Assembly (NCBI RefSeq): GCF_001610875.1
Contig: NZ_CP011272.1
Location: forward strand, 6,181,988-6,245,987
Direction of reading: 5' to 3'
Source of the DNA: Pirellula sp. SH-Sr6A
GTDB lineage: Bacteria > Planctomycetota > Planctomycetia > Pirellulales > Pirellulaceae
DNA length: 64,000 nt
The notes beneath the pieces were generated by a model, which was not told where the DNA came from, did not search any database, and saw nothing but the letters and a program-made list of their open reading frames with translations. This document shows positions 29,217-58,976 of this stretch, one piece after another (position 1 is the stretch's first letter; the number at the start of each line of letters is the position of its first letter). The position numbers and the translations under genes are program-made.

Positions 29217-29891
29217 TCAGACGTTTAGTTCACTATCCGGACGAGAACTCGCTAAAACCCACGACCTCAATGCCGTGTAGACCACGATGCCATTCAACAG
29301 ATGCCATATAAAGTGCGTGCCGATGGACCACGTCACGTCCCGATCCATGGACCGGGCTGCGATAGCGAGTGTAAAGAACAAAACGGAAAGTGCGAGCAAT
29401 CCACGTTCGACATGACTGGTCCAAGCCCAAATCAGGCTGAAGACCAACATGGCCACCCAAGACGGGATATAGAACAACGAACCGTTGAGGGGAGACTTGA
29501 ACGGCATCAAGGCATAGGACCCTCCCACGACAGCCATCACGATCAACGCTGCGAGCCAGCCAGGAATCGAAAGTAGTTTTCGGGAGATCAACCACAGGAA
29601 TAAGATTTGAAACAAGGTGATGGGAATGATATCGAGCCACATCGTCGGAATAGATGGAACCGTGTGGAAAAGGAAGCTTCCACAGCCGATCGTTGCGGCC
29701 AACACAATCAATGCGAGAGTCGCAGGATCGAGACTCCGCCTTCGCGTTGCGAAATCTAATCCTAGTGCAGCTGCGATAAGGAACGAGGCATTGCTAATCG
29801 CATTGAATGGTTCTGCCCAAAACGCGGGATCGCCTCCCCGCTCGCGATACAGCTGAAGCATGATTTGATTGAAAGGAATAAGTGATTGCAT
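29217..29891 (-). CDS. Ceramidase-like (CREST family) membrane protein, 224 aa
   Basis: Seven-helix membrane protein resembling alkaline ceramidases of the CREST superfamily. The key residues are visible: E27 and N30 in AEPFNAISNASF, S72 and H76 in GCGSFLFHT, D87 in WLDIIPI and H193/H197 in THFIWHLLNG, matching the Ser/His/Asp zinc site of the family. The usual eukaryotic enzymes cleave ceramide into sphingosine and fatty acid; bacterial homologues are mostly uncharacterised and could act on other lipids. It starts at an ATG at 29891, 180 bp after the radical SAM gene. The 29023-29216 gap after it holds no clear terminator. Confidence 0.85.
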   Translation of the reverse strand: MQSLIPFNQIMLQLYRERGGDPAFWAEPFNAISNASFLIAAALGLDFATRRRSLDPATLALIVLAATIGCGSFLFHTVPSIPTMWLDIIPITLFQILFLWLISRKLLSIPGWLAALIVMAVVGGSYALMPFKSPLNGSLFYIPSWVAMLVFSLIWAWTSHVERGLLALSVLFFTLAIAARSMDRDVTWSIGTHFIWHLLNGIVVYTALRSWVLASSRPDSELNV

Positions 29892-30071: not shown

Positions 30072-31544
30072 TTACATATGCCCTCCACTGTTGCTGGTGT
30101 GCACATCGTTCCGTGCCAATTCGTCGCGGCCGTCCCACCGTATTTCAGTCATCAGCGCAGCGATGGAATCCGAATAGAACATTCCTTTGGGAGTAAGCTC
30201 GTACCCCGTACGATCCCCGTGAATCAGCTCTTTCTCCCGCAACAATTCTAACCTTTCGGAGAATCGGTCCCACCGGTCTGATGCCTGCAGCATCGAAACC
30301 GTGTGGGCGTCCAATCGAAGCGAAGCGAGACGTCGGGTGACTTGCAGCACCTCCCAATCCGAGCGATCGTATGAATAGTAGCGATTCCAGATCGGCGATG
30401 GCGAACGGACCGATTGCATATATTGCAACGAGCTCTCGGGATTCATCGTTTTGAGCGCGTAGTGCCCATCCTCTGAGGCCGCAAACGAGATCCCCGAAGG
30501 ACCAAATCCCATGACCTGGCAGTGACTCGATTCATAGCTTATCGGTTCGTATCGATATCGTCGGGCGTCGTTTTCGAATTGTTTGTACTCGAAGTTGGTA
30601 AGGGAAGTTTGGTGAAATCCGTTCTGCAGCAATGTCTCGCGAAGCGAACACCAATTGTGCTCTGCCTCCGGGTTGCTCGGAAGAGCCGAAGTCAACGAGG
30701 AGTCACGAGACCAAGCGGTACCTAAACCAGGAAACATAACGAGATGATAAAGGCAGATTTGATCAAGCCCGATGTCGATTGCTTTTCGTACGTCTGACTT
30801 CATCTCTTCCAAAGTTTGACCAGGAAGATTACAAAGCAAATCGCCGCTGGCAGTCATCCCTCGTACGTGTGCCGCGTCCACTGCTGATGCAAACGTTTCT
30901 GGTCGTCCAAACCCTAACCTCCCCATCTTCTCCAGTTGTGTTTCTGAGAATGTTTGAATACCCATGCTGATTCGGAAATGACGAGCAGGAATCTCCTCGG
31001 TCATCACATCGAGCAGCAATGGCTTGCCAAGAACGAAGTTGCGAGGAACACCTTCCAGCGAAACTTCGGCCTTGGTGAGATCGAACGCTTGCACGAGACA
31101 ATGCGATAGACGACGAAAGGAATCTGCCGGTGTAAGGTTGGCCGTCCCGCCCCCGAAATAGAGCGCGTCGACCGATGCTTGGTAGAAACTAGAGGACGGG
31201 GGAACCCTCTGCTCGACCTCGTGTTCCACTGCGGCAGAGACCGCAGCCGCTTTCGCGGAGCTAAAGGCTTCATGCGGGAAAGTGCAAAAGCCGCATCCAC
31301 TAATCTTCGGATTGCAAAAAGGATGAGGCAACACGCCTACCAGCATCGGATGCGAGGGGTTTCGGGATAAGACAAACTTCGGATCGCAATGGGCTGCACG
31401 CTGCCTTTCGTCCTCGCCCGCGAATCGCATTGCGGCCGCGAGAGGATAGCCATGGAGCAAACGATGTCGCTGCGGTCGCGACATGAATTTGGCCAACCGG
31501 GCGCGAAGCGATCTTGTCGAGAGAAGGGTATCGACGGACATCAT
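30072..31544 (-). CDS. HemW/HemN-like radical SAM protein with CX6CX2C cysteines, 490 aa
   Basis: Radical SAM enzyme of the coproporphyrinogen-oxidase-like (HemN/HemW) type: an iron-sulfur and SAM-binding barrel (about 65-330) with YFGGGTANL, SMGIQTFSETQLEKMGR and DLLCNLPGQTLEEM, followed by a HemW-like C-terminal region with a winged-helix look (about 390-465). The cluster ligands are spaced C77-x6-C84-x2-C87, unlike the usual CX3CX2C. The start is one of two adjacent ATGs (31544/31541) preceded by AGGGAG; longer forms starting at 31568 or 31601 lack a ribosome site. A sigma-54-type promoter lies 74 bp upstream and the divergent neighbour is a sigma-54 activator. Whether it acts on haem, in haem delivery, or in other chemistry is unknown. 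Confidence 0.85.
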   Translation of the reverse strand: MMSVDTLLSTRSLRARLAKFMSRPQRHRLLHGYPLAAAMRFAGEDERQRAAHCDPKFVLSRNPSHPMLVGVLPHPFCNPKISGCGFCTFPHEAFSSAKAAAVSAAVEHEVEQRVPPSSSFYQASVDALYFGGGTANLTPADSFRRLSHCLVQAFDLTKAEVSLEGVPRNFVLGKPLLLDVMTEEIPARHFRISMGIQTFSETQLEKMGRLGFGRPETFASAVDAAHVRGMTASGDLLCNLPGQTLEEMKSDVRKAIDIGLDQICLYHLVMFPGLGTAWSRDSSLTSALPSNPEAEHNWCSLRETLLQNGFHQTSLTNFEYKQFENDARRYRYEPISYESSHCQVMGFGPSGISFAASEDGHYALKTMNPESSLQYMQSVRSPSPIWNRYYSYDRSDWEVLQVTRRLASLRLDAHTVSMLQASDRWDRFSERLELLREKELIHGDRTGYELTPKGMFYSDSIAALMTEIRWDGRDELARNDVHTSNSGGHM

Positions 31545-31617
31545 GTACTCCCTGGGGAATGCGGTCATGGAAAAATTCGAGGCAGGGACGACCCTCCTCA
31601 AGCAGGACCACTCCTAG

Positions 31618-31633
31618 GCGAATCGTGTGCCAA
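31618..31633 (-). promoter_or_regulatory. Sigma-54 (-24/-12) promoter for the radical SAM gene
   Basis: Read on the minus strand, TTGGCACACGATTCGC matches the sigma-54 consensus TTGGCAC-N5-TTGC with one mismatch, and the invariant GG and GC are separated by exactly ten bases. Transcription would start near 31606, about 60 nt before the ATG. Confidence 0.7.
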
Positions 31634-31696
31634 GACGAGCGATATTCCTTCAAGTCCTTTCTCGTGAGGAGTTTAGAAGGTTCTATTCGTGAAAAC

Positions 31697-31711
31697 CGCC
31701 TCACCGAGGCG
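31697..31711. promoter_or_regulatory. Candidate upstream activator site (inverted repeat)
   Basis: CGCCTC-ACC-GAGGCG is a perfect palindromic pair centred about 98 bp upstream of the predicted sigma-54 start site, the usual distance for an enhancer bound by a Fis-type activator. It is also 63 bp before the activator's own ATG, so it could serve autoregulation. Inference only. Confidence 0.4.
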
Positions 31712-31773
31712 CTAGCCCTAATACAATAAATGCGGTCCATGCGCTACATTTTTTGTACTAAGGGTCTTTAGTT

Positions 31774-33348
31774 ATGTCGCTCCTGACGACGGGTGAATGG
31801 CGGGCTGCGGAGGCAATCGCTGGTATTGGTTATGCCAATCCGTTTCTGCCAGAACGGGTTGTGTTGGAGAAGAAAGCTCTTGGAAAGAGCTTCAGGGGCA
31901 TTCCCGCGTTTCTTCAATTCCGCCCGGAGTGTTCGGCGGCCGATCTGTTCCCAAACCTGGTAGCTTTGCGTGATCGCTGTGAGCAGTTGGTTGGGAAATT
32001 GCGCTCGAAGTTGCTTGCAGGAGAGGAAGCGGGGAAGCGGGAATGGGAAGTTTATGAAGATCTAGTTCTCTATCTGCTTTACGCTCGTTATATGAGTCAT
32101 GCGATAGAGGTACCCGCATCCGGTTTTCGATGCCGTCCTGAGGACGATATTCTCGCAAGTTATGACTCGTTTGCGAACGACTTTCGATACTTCTTCGAGT
32201 TCAAACGCACAAAGTTGTCCTCGCTATTGGATCGAGACACACTTTTCGCCGGCCTCTTTCAGATCGAACGAGCCTTCTTTCATATCTTCCGCCACATCGT
32301 GGGAGTTTCGCCGGCTGCGGCGCAGCTAAGAGCTACCGTGTGGCAATCGATCTTCACCCACGACATGCGCCGCTATCGGCAGTCACTCTACAAGCAAATG
32401 GGTGATATTCCAACGTTGATCACAGGTCCCTCCGGTACTGGAAAGGAGCTAGTTGCTCAATCGATTGCGTACTCGCGATTCATCGAGTTCGATGCAAGGA
32501 AGAAGAGATTCGCTGCGGACTATTCCGCCAGCTTCATTGGCCTCAATCTGAGTTCGATTTCGCCAACACTCATCGAGTCGGAGTTGTTCGGTTATGTGAA
32601 AGGTGCGTTTACGGGTGCCCATCAGGATCGCAAGGGGTTTCTAGATCCGGCCATTTGTTCTGGATATGGTACGGTATTGCTGGATGAGATCGGCGAGTTG
32701 GATACCTACCTACAAGTCAAGCTGCTCAGGGTGCTGCAATCACGGGAGTTCCAGCGCGTCGGGGATACTCGCAGTTGTAAGTTCATTGGGAAGATCATTG
32801 CGGCGACAAACCGAGATCTTGCCGAGGAGATGAAAGAAGGACGTTTTCGGGAAGATTTTTATTATCGTTTGTGCGCAGACCGGATTGAAACACCTTCTCT
32901 TCGCATTCAACTCGATGAAGCACCCGAGAGCATCGCGAACTTTGTGAGATTTATCGCCGTTCGAATCTTTCCCGATACGGTCGATAGGACGGAACAACTG
33001 GTGGAGCAAGTAGTCGAATGGATCTCTCGAAATCTGGGATCCCATTACGCTTGGCGTGGAAACTTTCGGGAGTTGGAACAATGCGTGCGAAGCATCGTCA
33101 TTCGTGGAAATTACCTGCCCGTGCACGACCCGTTTTGGCAGAAGAGAACGCCTCGCACTGATTTTCTGTCCAGCGTAGAGAAAGGCTCTCTCGATCGAGA
33201 ACGCCTTCTACAAGGCTACTTCTCGCTCGTTTATGCCCAATCGGGTAGCTACCGCGCGGCCGGCCAGCGGCTTGGTGTGGATTGGCGAACGGTGAAGGAG
33301 ATCGTAGAAAAAGCGAACTTGAGTCAGTGCAACGAGCAAAACGGTTAG
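31774..33348 (+). CDS. Sigma-54-dependent transcriptional activator, 524 aa
   Basis: Bacterial enhancer-binding protein. The central AAA+ domain (about 195-430) has Walker A G218-PSGTG-K224, the sigma-54 contact loop GAFTGA at 277-282, Walker B around D304 in VLLDEIGEL and sensor-region motifs (AATNRDL, FREDFYYRL, WRGNFRELEQ). The C-terminal Fis-type helix-turn-helix reads YRAAGQRLGVDWRTVKEIV (about 490-510). The N-terminal 190 residues are helical and unlike GAF, PAS, receiver or CARF sensors that I recognise (YARYMSHAIEVPASGF is a distinctive stretch). ATG at 31774 has AAGGG nine bases upstream. It is transcribed away from the radical SAM gene, its likely target. Confidence 0.92.
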   Translation: MSLLTTGEWRAAEAIAGIGYANPFLPERVVLEKKALGKSFRGIPAFLQFRPECSAADLFPNLVALRDRCEQLVGKLRSKLLAGEEAGKREWEVYEDLVLYLLYARYMSHAIEVPASGFRCRPEDDILASYDSFANDFRYFFEFKRTKLSSLLDRDTLFAGLFQIERAFFHIFRHIVGVSPAAAQLRATVWQSIFTHDMRRYRQSLYKQMGDIPTLITGPSGTGKELVAQSIAYSRFIEFDARKKRFAADYSASFIGLNLSSISPTLIESELFGYVKGAFTGAHQDRKGFLDPAICSGYGTVLLDEIGELDTYLQVKLLRVLQSREFQRVGDTRSCKFIGKIIAATNRDLAEEMKEGRFREDFYYRLCADRIETPSLRIQLDEAPESIANFVRFIAVRIFPDTVDRTEQLVEQVVEWISRNLGSHYAWRGNFRELEQCVRSIVIRGNYLPVHDPFWQKRTPRTDFLSSVEKGSLDRERLLQGYFSLVYAQSGSYRAAGQRLGVDWRTVKEIVEKANLSQCNEQNG

Positions 33349-34733: not shown

Positions 34734-35618
34734 TTAGAATTCTTGTTTTCGTGCGCGGACTTTCCGCGAATATTTTTCCATGAACTTGCGTTCTTTGGCG
34801 GTGAGGGAATCCTTTCCTAGCTCATGTATTTTCGCCAGGATGCGGTCCGCTTCGGCGTCATCGGTGCCTGAGGCAAGTTCGACATCTTCGTGGATTCGAA
34901 GCTTGGGGCCAAGCCACTTTCGTCTCAATCGGCGGAGCGCACCACCGAGGTCTTGGACGAACGAGAAATTCCATCCCAAGAAAAAGTACGCGACCGCGAT
35001 CAGGATACCCATGATGTGGACATCGACCGCCACCTGAGAGGTGGGGGTAGTGATCAAATTCGAAAGGACCAGGAAAACGCCAAGCACCCAGGCTGGGACC
35101 GGGAAGACAAACAGGTAGATCACCTGCTTGGGGAAATTCAATACAAACAGCATCTCGATGCAAATGACTGCGCCCGAGGCGCCGAGCAATCGGGAGTTTG
35201 GTGCTCCGATCAGAGAGTTCTTCAGCAGCCAAGCCACCCCGCAGAGCACTGCGGCAGACAAATAGATGCGTAGGAATTCCCACTTTCCATAGCGATCCTC
35301 AACCGATCGTCCCAGGAAATAGAGTCCCAGCATATTGAATACAATATGCCAGATCCCACCGTTGGCGGACGCATCGTGCACAAAAGCATACGAAAGCGTA
35401 TGCCACCAGAGCCATGGCTTGGTCGCGTCGGAACCGGCGAGCATCAATGCGTTGTTGACAATTCCCTGGTCGTTGGCCTTGAAATTGCTGAGAAGAATGT
35501 TGGCGACGTAGATCGCGATATTGAGCAGGAGCAAATAGCTAACTGCGGACTTACCATCCCAGTCGGGCTGTAGTCGAATGGTGTCGTCTCGGTAGTAATC
35601 GCGTTCGTAGAGTCCCAT
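34734..35618 (-). CDS. Rhomboid family intramembrane serine protease, 294 aa
   Basis: Six-helix membrane protease. The catalytic pair is present: S148 in LLGASGAV and H201 in VDVHIMG, together with the conserved H91 and N95 of HIVFNMLG in helix 2. Hydrophobic segments span about 27-46, 88-104, 116-134, 145-162, 165-190 and 199-217. After them comes a cytoplasmic tail of about 75 charged residues (KFMEKYSRKVRARKQEF at the end), resembling the C-terminal region of planctomycete and plastid-type rhomboids. It follows the helical membrane-anchored gene by 41 bp and precedes lysA by 25 bp. Its substrates are unknown. Confidence 0.92.
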   Translation of the reverse strand: MGLYERDYYRDDTIRLQPDWDGKSAVSYLLLLNIAIYVANILLSNFKANDQGIVNNALMLAGSDATKPWLWWHTLSYAFVHDASANGGIWHIVFNMLGLYFLGRSVEDRYGKWEFLRIYLSAAVLCGVAWLLKNSLIGAPNSRLLGASGAVICIEMLFVLNFPKQVIYLFVFPVPAWVLGVFLVLSNLITTPTSQVAVDVHIMGILIAVAYFFLGWNFSFVQDLGGALRRLRRKWLGPKLRIHEDVELASGTDDAEADRILAKIHELGKDSLTAKERKFMEKYSRKVRARKQEF

Positions 35619-37457: not shown

Positions 37458-39233
37458 TTAACCCGCCATTTCTCGAGTCTTGAGGAAGAAGTACGCAATA
37501 ACGCTGGTCATCACGAAGTACCCGAATGCGATCGTGAGATGCCGCGCGAGCAGACCGTCAAACAAGTTAACCCCATAGGCGATGAAATCCGACGTTTCTA
37601 GATCATACAGGTTCGGAAGGGCCGATTTCAGCGTCGAGACAGAAAAGAGCAACCCTCGATCCACGCCCTTGATCGCACCTTCGATCATTTCATTTCCCAA
37701 GTCCAATTGGGTTTCGGAGCCGCTTTGCAACGGGAGTCTCACCAATGCTTCCACGGGCCCTCCTCCGGCAATCTTACCGGTGGTGAGGTTGTCGATAAAC
37801 CATCCGAACATTCCCAAAACAATCACCGAGATCGTCGCGATGACGGCAACCGGCCCCGATAAGAAGGTGGAGAACATCACGCCAAAGCAAACCACGATGA
37901 ACATCTGCAGCCAAATACTGATGTACCCTTTGACGAAGTTCCACAGAAACGTTCCTTCGGACGCTCTCAAATAGAGATCCGCGGCCGCCATCCCGAGATA
38001 CTGTCCTCGATCGCGACAGCGAACCACGACTTCAAACGACCCGTCTTGAGCGATATCGGTGAAGAAATCCAAGTCGGCTGGTTCCCCTTTCCGAAATCCT
38101 TTGAGCTTGAGAGGGATCGAATGCTGATCGATCTGGAACTCCTTGACTCGAAACGGGATGCGGTCGCTTTCGACTTCGCCATTCAAACTTCGGAATATGA
38201 CCACGCCGCCGACGGGGGTTTCGATATCCCCTTTGTACGTGCGGAACGCTGAGAGAGTCATGTCGAAATTGAGTACGTCCGGGAACAGTCTGGGATTCAC
38301 GTTTTCAAATGTCCAGATCGCAGACGAAAGCGTGTCACCCTCGATGTACTTCTGGTATTCCGACATGTATCCGACGTTGTAGCCGGTGTTCTCCTCGCCG
38401 TCTCGACCGGTGAATCGGAGCGTGCCATACACCGGGTTGCGAGCCGTCAAATCGTCGACTTGCTCGGTGATGACGATCTTGTCACCCACTTTGCGAACAA
38501 TATGCCGGTGACCTTTCACCATGTTCGTCGTGCCGAGGCCATCTTCGTTGAGAGTGAAGGAGTGGCTGTGGAAACGCACATTGGTCGTTTCACCTGCAAG
38601 ACCATCGTTTTGAAGGCTTTCCAAATCGTGCGAGTGCGAAAGTCCCCGAACGATAAAGAAGTAACTCATGACGCCGAAGATCGCCAAGTTCATCGTCGCA
38701 ACTGCCACGAAGCCCAGAACACGTCCGAGGAAAATCTCGGTGGGACGGACCGGTTTGGTGACGATCGTGTAGATCACACGATTCGTAATATCGCGTGGGA
38801 TGCTGAAGGTGCTCAGAAAGAGGCCCATCAGCAGCATGAGCCAATTCGTAAAGGTAAGGACCGTTGGAATGTAGAGTTGTGCGGGATTACTCGCCTTCGG
38901 GTCTAGAAACCAACCTGCGAACATGATGGCGACGACGAAGACAGCCACCACGATGAGAATTCTATTCCGGATCGCTTCCTTGAACGACAACTTGGCAATC
39001 GCGAAGATTCGCCGAATCGACATCCTAGGAAGGTCGACCGAGAAGAACTCACCAAGGATTTTGGCGACCTGAAGAAAGCCCTCGGTCGGGCCGTATTTGA
39101 TCGTCGCGATCAAAAAACCGACGAGGAATCCGAGGATGGAAAGTATGAGGGCCAGCAGGAATCCACCAAGGAGTCCGCCTCGCTCGAACAACCACTCCCA
39201 ATAGGTCCAGAACTGATCAGGTGTAAGACGCAT
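37458..39233 (-). CDS. ABC-2 type transporter permease, 591 aa
   Basis: Integral membrane partner of the ATPase gene upstream (45 bp gap). Hydrophobic helices are at about 18-44, 95-112, 125-142, 168-192 in the first half and 425-445, 452-475, 565-585 in the second. The segment FSIPRDITNRVIYTIVTKPVRPTEIFLGRVLG is typical of ABC-2 permeases. Between the halves is an unusually large hydrophilic region (about 195-415), probably extracytoplasmic, with several histidines (HSHDLES, FHSHSF, GHRHIVRK). The ABC-2 family exports polysaccharides, drugs or proteins; nothing identifies the cargo. It overlaps the chain of coupled genes that ends with lysA. Confidence 0.88.
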   Translation of the reverse strand: MRLTPDQFWTYWEWLFERGGLLGGFLLALILSILGFLVGFLIATIKYGPTEGFLQVAKILGEFFSVDLPRMSIRRIFAIAKLSFKEAIRNRILIVVAVFVVAIMFAGWFLDPKASNPAQLYIPTVLTFTNWLMLLMGLFLSTFSIPRDITNRVIYTIVTKPVRPTEIFLGRVLGFVAVATMNLAIFGVMSYFFIVRGLSHSHDLESLQNDGLAGETTNVRFHSHSFTLNEDGLGTTNMVKGHRHIVRKVGDKIVITEQVDDLTARNPVYGTLRFTGRDGEENTGYNVGYMSEYQKYIEGDTLSSAIWTFENVNPRLFPDVLNFDMTLSAFRTYKGDIETPVGGVVIFRSLNGEVESDRIPFRVKEFQIDQHSIPLKLKGFRKGEPADLDFFTDIAQDGSFEVVVRCRDRGQYLGMAAADLYLRASEGTFLWNFVKGYISIWLQMFIVVCFGVMFSTFLSGPVAVIATISVIVLGMFGWFIDNLTTGKIAGGGPVEALVRLPLQSGSETQLDLGNEMIEGAIKGVDRGLLFSVSTLKSALPNLYDLETSDFIAYGVNLFDGLLARHLTIAFGYFVMTSVIAYFFLKTREMAG

Positions 39234-58526: not shown

Positions 58527-58976
58527 TTATCGGCCCGCGGAGGGTTCGCAGACGGTGCAATGACCTTTTACCAAGATCTCGGTGACTCGAGAGATGTTGT
58601 GCGACTTTCGAACCTTCTCATCTGGCACCGAGATTCCTTCTAAACAGGAGACAATCCCGCACTCCACGCACACAAAGTGCGGGTGGCTGCTCCGATCGTG
58701 TTCGGGATCTCGGATCTCGAATCGCCAGACGTGGTCTCCGAGTTCCGTGCGACTCACCAACTCTGCGTCGGTGAGATCCGTCAGGTTTCGGAACACCGTC
58801 GCTTTGTCGAAGCCTTGGGGAACGAGCAAATCGGAGAGTTCGGCGTGCGTTTGAGGTTTCGTCGCCTTGCGCAAAGCCGATAGGACCGCGATCCGAGCCG
58901 GAGTGCTTCGGAGTCCAACCGCGCGTAGGATTTGTCGAGCCAGCTCTACTTCGTCGACATCAGGCTTCTTAGTCAT
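58527..58976 (-). CDS. Fur family transcriptional regulator, 149 aa
   Basis: Metal- or peroxide-sensing repressor of the Fur/Zur/PerR family. N-terminal winged helix (about 12-90): LRSTPARIAVLSALRKATKPQTHAELS, GFDKATVFRNLTDLTDAELVSR. C-terminal dimer domain with HDRSSHPHFVCVECG, whose CxxC, and the CTVC pair near the end, form the structural zinc site. Which metal it senses cannot be read from sequence. It is the last gene of a minus-strand operon, 6 bp after the receiver gene, and is convergent by 4 bp with the MocA gene. Confidence 0.92.
   Translation of the reverse strand: MTKKPDVDEVELARQILRAVGLRSTPARIAVLSALRKATKPQTHAELSDLLVPQGFDKATVFRNLTDLTDAELVSRTELGDHVWRFEIRDPEHDRSSHPHFVCVECGIVSCLEGISVPDEKVRKSHNISRVTEILVKGHCTVCEPSAGR

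Follow-up and report, generated by a model that had tools for sequence, protein, structure and literature searches.

The 64,000-nucleotide stretch of the Pirellula sp. SH-Sr6A chromosome analyzed here (referred to as the window; the genome is 6.53 Mb in a single contig, NZ_CP011272.1) contains a divergent gene pair encoding a sigma-54-dependent activator, i.e., a bacterial enhancer-binding protein (bEBP), and a radical S-adenosylmethionine (SAM) protein. We infer a scheme in which a signal would reach the N-terminal sensor of this dedicated activator, which would bind a TGTACATTnAATGTACA-type site (31744-31758) just before its own gene and, by ATP-dependent activation, switch on a single sigma-54 promoter (31618-31633, minus strand). 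The radical SAM gene would be transcribed from this promoter, probably along with the ceramidase-like gene after it, and the activator may also repress its own promoter. Judged by genome comparison, which supports the divergent arrangement, the promoter and the site, the pair and its promoter are real, and we assign the whole scheme of activator, site, single promoter and radical SAM/ceramidase-like output a probability of roughly 0.78. The initial annotation had read the locus as a compact module in which one enzyme is switched by one activator. The single activator, the sigma-54 promoter, the divergent radical SAM gene (in six genomes) and a single good site-promoter pair in the genome held up, while the palindrome named as the activator site did not; the module itself was drawn too narrowly, as the pair is one variant, and a rare one, of a multi-phylum activator family and the output here probably comprises two genes. 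Neither the conserved site at 31744-31758 nor the ceramidase-like gene had been noticed in the initial annotation.

Near-full-length relatives of the activator (42-52% identical) were found in 15 of the 59 other genomes, with one more partial relative (G013) and a contig-end fragment holding only the start of the activator (G026). Close radical SAM relatives (at least 49% identity) are present in three of these 59 genomes (G026, G002, and G024). A search of 396 genomes of the order gave three radical SAM matches (the window's own, G002, and G135), G135 being the sole new one; this is the genome of Aeoliella straminimaris, in which locus L083 lies. One more relative (L097) was met through the activator search. 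In all six loci with a close radical SAM gene (window, G026, G002, G024, L083, and L097) the two genes are divergent. The conservation of the pair that the initial annotation called for is only partly borne out: a radical SAM gene adjoins the activator in just 2 of the 15 near-full-length relatives (G002 and G024), the rest having different neighbors. The G024 copy (L045, 1489-3060) is broken by a TAG and is probably decaying; its activator frame is open and its promoter kept. A frame from L045:3 nearby looks transposase-like by eye. A 392-genome sample of the phylum added three radical SAM relatives at greater distance, in G531 (44%, E 1e-110), G515 (40%), and G478 (43%).

For the wider comparison, the N-terminal domain of the activator was searched in a genome collection, giving 189 loci, of which 80 were kept. 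Their record titles name Planctomycetota, Verrucomicrobia, Lentisphaerae, Acidobacteria, NC10/Methylomirabilota, Nitrospinota, Hydrogenedentota, and Deltaproteobacteria, several being metagenome bins. The window, the 15 relatives and these 80 loci (96 in total), minus four repeats (L087, L110, L116, and L138) and one locus that is too short (L109), make up the 91 loci used below; G013 and G026 lie outside this set, and the near-identical pairs L096/L099 and L101/L107 remain in it.

The minus strand at 31633-31618 reads TTGGCACACGATTCGC, with GG and GC ten bases apart and 74 bp before the likely ATG at 31544, in agreement with the sigma-54 promoter claimed from the sequence at the outset; transcription would start near 31606. 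RpoN is encoded once in the genome (382 bits vs. a cut-off of 277). In the 64-kb window, TGGCACN5TTGC with up to two mismatches has 51 matches vs. 54.5 expected, three of them with one mismatch. Taken alone, the promoter thus does not stand out from chance in the window, and its meaning rests on comparison. Two more one-mismatch sigma-54-like sequences were seen at 38480-38494 and 58623-58637, both on the plus strand. A good promoter is present in all six loci with a close radical SAM gene, window included (scores 27.5-29.5). Among the 91 loci, a score of at least 27 is reached on the divergent strand in 50 and on the activator strand in one, against 4.0 expected from shuffles, the weights having been written by hand from the known consensus after some sequences had been inspected.

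Conservation also points to a site in front of the activator gene. In a motif-free word count of the 260 bp before the activator, ATGTACA was the top 7-mer (47/91 loci vs. 1.7 expected), followed in enrichment by dyads such as GTACA-N5-TGTAC (11/91 loci vs. 0.03 expected), and refinement on the upstream regions of the 91 loci gave the family motif stated above. As the first motif was trained on the same loci that it scored, a two-fold held-out repeat was made, in which 63 of the 91 loci score 12 or more (0.5 expected from shuffles). The window copy, GCGCTACATTTTTTGTACTAA, is centered on 31751 and has a leave-one-out score of 9.6 (p 0.009, 2000 shuffles). The pattern GTACAN5TGTA occurs at five places in the genome when matched exactly (weaker sites may exist), and only at that of the window is there a strong sigma-54 promoter within 320 bp (29.3, the others scoring at most 24.3).

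In the 40 loci with both elements, the site center lies 92-96 bp (12 loci), 104-107 bp (6) or 115-120 bp (14) from the -24 element, with 8 outside these ranges; the window, at 119 bp, fits the last cluster but is not among the 40. A requirement for the looped activator to face the polymerase would predict such clustering, although the periodicity test of this phasing is weakened by the relatedness of the loci and used jitter as its null. Ten of 64 loci have a TTGACA-like box (at least 5/6) that starts 29 or 30 bp ahead of the site center and is separated by 17-18 bp from the TACAtT within the site (on the other strand, at most two at any offset). The arrangement suggests that in these relatives the site overlaps the activator promoter, of the form TTGACA-17/18-TACAtT, and that the activator represses itself.

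The open frame of the radical SAM gene extends to 31601, and the start at 31544 is backed by a purine-rich GGGAG just before it and by the aligned starts of relatives. The usual spacing of the radical SAM cysteines is CX3CX2C. The unusual spacing noticed earlier in the window protein, CX6CX2C, was confirmed. The six close members, the window among them, all share it, as do the distant G531 and G515, making eight readable members; the corresponding stretch of G478 is partly masked. The ceramidase-like gene follows after 180 bp, a gap in which a scan gave no terminator-like or promoter-like match, and the same gene order is found in the window, G026, and L083. In all three, the ceramidase-like protein conserves S-x3-H, D, and H-x3-H, which we take to be the catalytic residues of ceramidase (PF05875); compared with solved structures, it has no match at E 1. 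The two genes are probably co-transcribed. In G002 and L097 the operon partner is instead an M20 hydrolase, which presumably resembles the hydrolases of N-fatty-acyl amino acids typified by PM20D1; among solved structures, aminoacylase-1 is nearest to the G002 protein.

The affinities of the radical SAM protein could be taken to mean that it acts on haem, as HutW/HemW-like enzymes do, and that the activator senses haem, iron or redox state. Its closest profiles are ChuW/HutW, STM4012, and HemW, and its nearest solved structures are HemN (1olt) and NocN (9p2u). However, all profile scores are far below the family cut-offs (101.5 bits vs. an equivalog cut-off of 400 for NCBIfam TIGR04107, ChuW/HutW, which is the best match; 75.3 vs. 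205.4 for HemW, TIGR00539), and the cysteine spacing differs from the usual one. The operon partners that profiles can name are hydrolases, and the other named outputs of the activator family have no evident haem link (the wider neighborhood was not searched for haem genes). A haem or iron switch is therefore unlikely in our judgment.

The product of the other gene of the pair was confirmed as a sigma-54 activator by its AAA+ domain and GAFTGA loop, in which G277 and A282 are invariant in 79 sequences and for which G002 and G024 carry the variant GSFSGA. Its N-terminal domain could not be matched to a known sensor at the outset, and this still stands: the best Pfam E value among 16 members was 0.023 and the best E value of a profile search of the PDB was 0.71, neither being significant. 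An alignment of 72 sequences shows invariant N22, F24, R28, L36, F168, G177, R186, W190, SIFT (192-195), and R200. Set against the N-terminal parts of E. coli RtcR, NorR, FhlA, and PrpR, one sequence each, the domain gave hhalign probabilities of 0.1-1.1%, showing no relation to them. Plasmid records searched with the domain gave no match; the radical SAM protein matches 114 such records, all below 60% identity, and of the 8 listed those that carry an annotation are of HemW, HemN or HutW type. Because there is no receiver domain among the Pfam matches of the activator, phosphorylation is a less likely signal than a small molecule or a protein.

Since the AAA+ part scores best with RtcR-type models (190 bits with NF038308, 200.9 bits with PADLOC RtcR_PspF2), and RtcR is likewise divergent to rtcBA, the activator might be regarded as a diverged RtcR whose outputs mend RNA damage. 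Yet the NF038308 score is well short of its cut-off (650), pairwise BLASTP of the AAA+ part favors NorR (147 bits) over RtcR (113 bits), and the N-terminal domain aligns with residues 1-185 of E. coli RtcR at an hhalign probability of 0.1%. Nor do the profile-named outputs include any RNA-repair gene, which makes an RNA-damage response quite improbable. The CARF domain of RtcR was sought by sequence, and the N-terminal part gave no significant Pfam match. A defence system was also considered: PADLOC gave only RtcR-type AAA+ matches for the activator and none for three other proteins.

The inverted repeat on which the initial annotation had placed the activator (31697-31711, CGCCTC-ACC-GAGGCG, with 6-bp arms and a 3-nt spacer) is present and lies at a usual distance from the promoter. 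Elsewhere in the genome its arms recur once, whereas the reversed pattern used as a control does not occur. It is nevertheless at chance level: such repeats are expected 0.41 times in the intergenic gap, with at least one in 28% of shuffles, and the gap holds four other short inverted repeats. Sought in L083, G002, G024, and L097, it was absent, the best match having 5-6 mismatches of 15, and a different motif is conserved across the family, so that a one-enzyme circuit built on this repeat is very improbable. Least credible of all is a chance neighborhood with a chance promoter match, which the promoter alone, no more than chance in 64 kb, would allow, but against which stand the pair and promoter kept in six genomes of at least two families.

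The other members of the activator family face a range of divergent genes. Automatic labels for the divergent gene in the 91 loci were VIT/von Willebrand protein (33), lysophospholipid transporter-acyltransferase (8), radical SAM (5), unnamed membrane protein (5), M20 hydrolase (2), and other (38). Seven were changed by hand (L094 and G044 to VIT; L104, L117, L121, and L126 to transporter; L092 to M24), resulting in 35 VIT, 12 transporter, 5 radical SAM, 5 unnamed membrane, 2 M20, 1 M24, and 31 other; in the loci moved to VIT or transporter, the class gene is not the immediate neighbor but lies further upstream behind at least one other gene, and many of the "other" loci are short contig ends or have no clear gene call, their output being unreadable. 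The label "DUF2157like", first given to one class, was dropped: the one member searched had no Pfam match, and comparison with the DUF2157 protein of L104 showed no similarity; the class is best read as an unnamed family of large membrane proteins. Promoters scoring at least 25 are found in 5/5 radical SAM loci (plus G026), 5/5 unnamed membrane protein, 2/2 M20, 28/35 VIT, 6/12 transporter, 14/31 other, and 0/1 M24 loci.

In the VIT class, every one of the 29 loci whose upstream sequence exceeds 3.7 kb has a rhombosortase-like gene close by, and two of the rhombosortase-like proteins score 83.6 and 81.9 with TIGR03902 (cut-off 84). Among the C-terminal tails of VIT/von Willebrand proteins listed, 25 of 27 combine A[IVL]DP with a hydrophobic stretch and with basic residues (e.g., L048, L099, and L134), mostly after a run of glycines; by sequence, the tail looks like a variant of the GlyGly-CTERM tail. 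No close copy of the VIT/rhombosortase output was found in the window's genome. Downstream of the promoter in two NC10/Methylomirabilota loci (L090 and L093) come a gene for a small protein with weak similarity to BamE (below the Pfam cut-off) and then an oxidase-like gene, with a lysophospholipid transporter-acyltransferase about 4 kb beyond the latter in L090. In the phylum sample, the N-terminal domain is found in 42/392 genomes at E 1e-15, with one match each when up to seven candidates were scored per genome. Two activator copies per genome were seen in Aeoliella G135 and in the Fuerstiella metagenome-assembled genome (MAG) Bin_49_1 (L085 and L143); one of the Fuerstiella copies lies beside an M20 hydrolase, the other beside a VIT/von Willebrand protein.

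On a quick tree, with the window and "other" loci left out and the L092 relabel not yet applied, the five output states need at least seven changes (minimum possible four), and on the full tree, with "other" as a state, 27 changes are needed vs. a shuffled mean of 45.9. By these counts, outputs partly track ancestry, with more than one exchange along the way. The window falls within a clade of eight (support 100/97) whose outputs are radical SAM (5), M20 (2), and M24 (1). Because these are unrelated amide-bond hydrolases (ceramidase-like, M20, and M24) with or without a radical SAM enzyme, the output chemistry, which is the weakest step of our interpretation, would most likely act on an N-acyl or peptide-like amphiphile, either modifying or cleaving it.

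Over all classes, 51 of 76 output open reading frames (ORFs) are predicted to have one or more transmembrane-like segments vs. 41% of 121 background ORFs. Since the sensor, activator and site are also met beside other genes, whose products are exported or membrane-bound more often than those of the background, a general envelope or lipid condition is a likelier signal than the substrate of the radical SAM enzyme. A bolder idea, which we hold to be possible though doubtful, is that the N-terminal domain represents a new class of sigma-54 sensor that reads the state of membranes or amphiphiles, as part of a sensor-site-promoter cassette that is portable and, in several phyla, is joined to one or another envelope effector. 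If true, the cassette would be an envelope-stress switch acting through sigma-54, with a surface protein and its rhombosortase, lysophospholipid salvage, N-acyl amide hydrolases and the CX6CX2C radical SAM enzyme as its effectors.

Several observations weigh against the proposed scheme or its envelope theme. The activator domain was not found in G531, G515, and G478 (assemblies 79-89% complete), so the close radical SAM subfamily goes with the activator and the wider enzyme family does not; in G531 (L179) and G515 (L180), a TetR-type regulator, as judged by eye, takes the divergent position opposite the radical SAM gene. The window site is weaker than most, its score of 9.6 to 10.2 (p 0.009) being below the limit of 12, and the activator promoter of the window has no visible -35 box, leaving its repression unsupported there. 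A promoter of at least 25 is missing in 17/31 other, 6/12 transporter, and 7/35 VIT loci and in the sole M24 locus. The loci are related, so counts over them overstate the evidence. With respect to the envelope theme, only 15/28 "other" loci have an output with a transmembrane-like segment, and none of the five radical SAM proteins has one.

Table 1. Predicted features of the activator/radical SAM locus, in positions of the window.
Feature	Coordinates	Strand	Evidence
Sigma-54-dependent activator (bEBP), 524 aa	31774..33348	+	PF00158, E 1.5e-46, 158.6 bits vs. gathering score 20.2
Activator architecture: unnamed N-terminal domain, AAA+ with GAFTGA, C-terminal Fis-type helix-turn-helix (HTH)			HTH by eye
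Presumed sensor domain (activator N-terminus), ~205 aa	31774..32388	+	alignments of 16 and 72 sequences
GAFTGA motif, residues 277-282	32602..32619	+	sequence
Predicted activator-binding site CTACATTTTTTGTAC, half-sites xTACA-N5-TGTAx	31744..31758	.	word enrichment, held-out motif
Sigma-54 promoter (predicted), -24 TTGGCAC / -12 TTCGC	31618..31633	-	sequence and conservation
Radical SAM protein, HemN/HutW-like, 490 aa from likely ATG	30072..31544	-	PF04055, 32.7 bits vs. cut-off 29.5
CX6CX2C iron-sulphur motif (C77, C84, C87)	31284..31316	-	alignment of relatives
Ceramidase-like membrane hydrolase (PF05875), likely operon gene 2	29217..29891	-	38.2 bits vs. cut-off 32.5

The features are collected in Table 1. 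GC content is even around the locus, and no Rfam or tRNA matches were found in the window. A rhomboid-type membrane protein gene near the activator (34734-35618, minus strand; 25.6 bits with the rhombosortase model) is probably unrelated.

In the open-access papers searched, we did not find rhombosortase joined with sigma-54, a lysophospholipid transporter joined with sigma-54, or CX6CX2C joined with radical SAM. Studholme and Dixon (2004) are said to have surveyed the enhancer-binding proteins of Pirellula sp. strain 1 and may already list a member of the family. The system is not described in the available portions of PMC1569441 and PMC12316311. A precedent for sigma-54 control of protein-sorting genes is PrsR (PMC1569441), where PEP-CTERM genes are preceded by a sigma-54 motif and, further upstream, by an activator motif; PrsR differs from the window activator in that it is a response regulator, has a partner kinase and serves many genes in proteobacteria. 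Dedicated rhombosortase/GlyGly-CTERM systems, with a VIT/VWA-type protein paired with a rhombosortase, are likewise already known (PMC3237569), and the commonest output of the activator family is similar, a VIT/VWA protein with a GG-tail beside a rhombosortase-like gene, but neither "sigma" nor "transcription" appears as a word in the main text of that paper.

The radical SAM protein resembles ChuW/HutW, HemW, and HemN over most of its length and departs from them in its cysteine spacing and low scores, and its group offers an unusual conserved spacing in a HemN-like enzyme tied to amide hydrolases. The closest parallels in wiring are two E. coli systems, RtcR/rtcBA, where the activator gene is divergent to its operon and the AAA+ profile is the closest, and NorR/norVW, where the enhancer-binding protein is also divergent to its target operon; in both, the N-terminal sequence shows no relation and the outputs differ. 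NorR responds to a ligand and is not known to depend on phosphorylation, as is likely for the activator here. The wiring proposed here is well supported by genome comparison and, next to these systems, ordinary in kind; the new elements are the unnamed sensor family, the site conserved with it and the change of outputs. For this family, which has no Pfam model match and is tied to dedicated rhombosortase systems and lysophospholipid salvage, the locus provides a defined predicted site, promoter and single predicted target, and, because the outputs differ while the sensor and site stay, comparing them may be a route to the signal.

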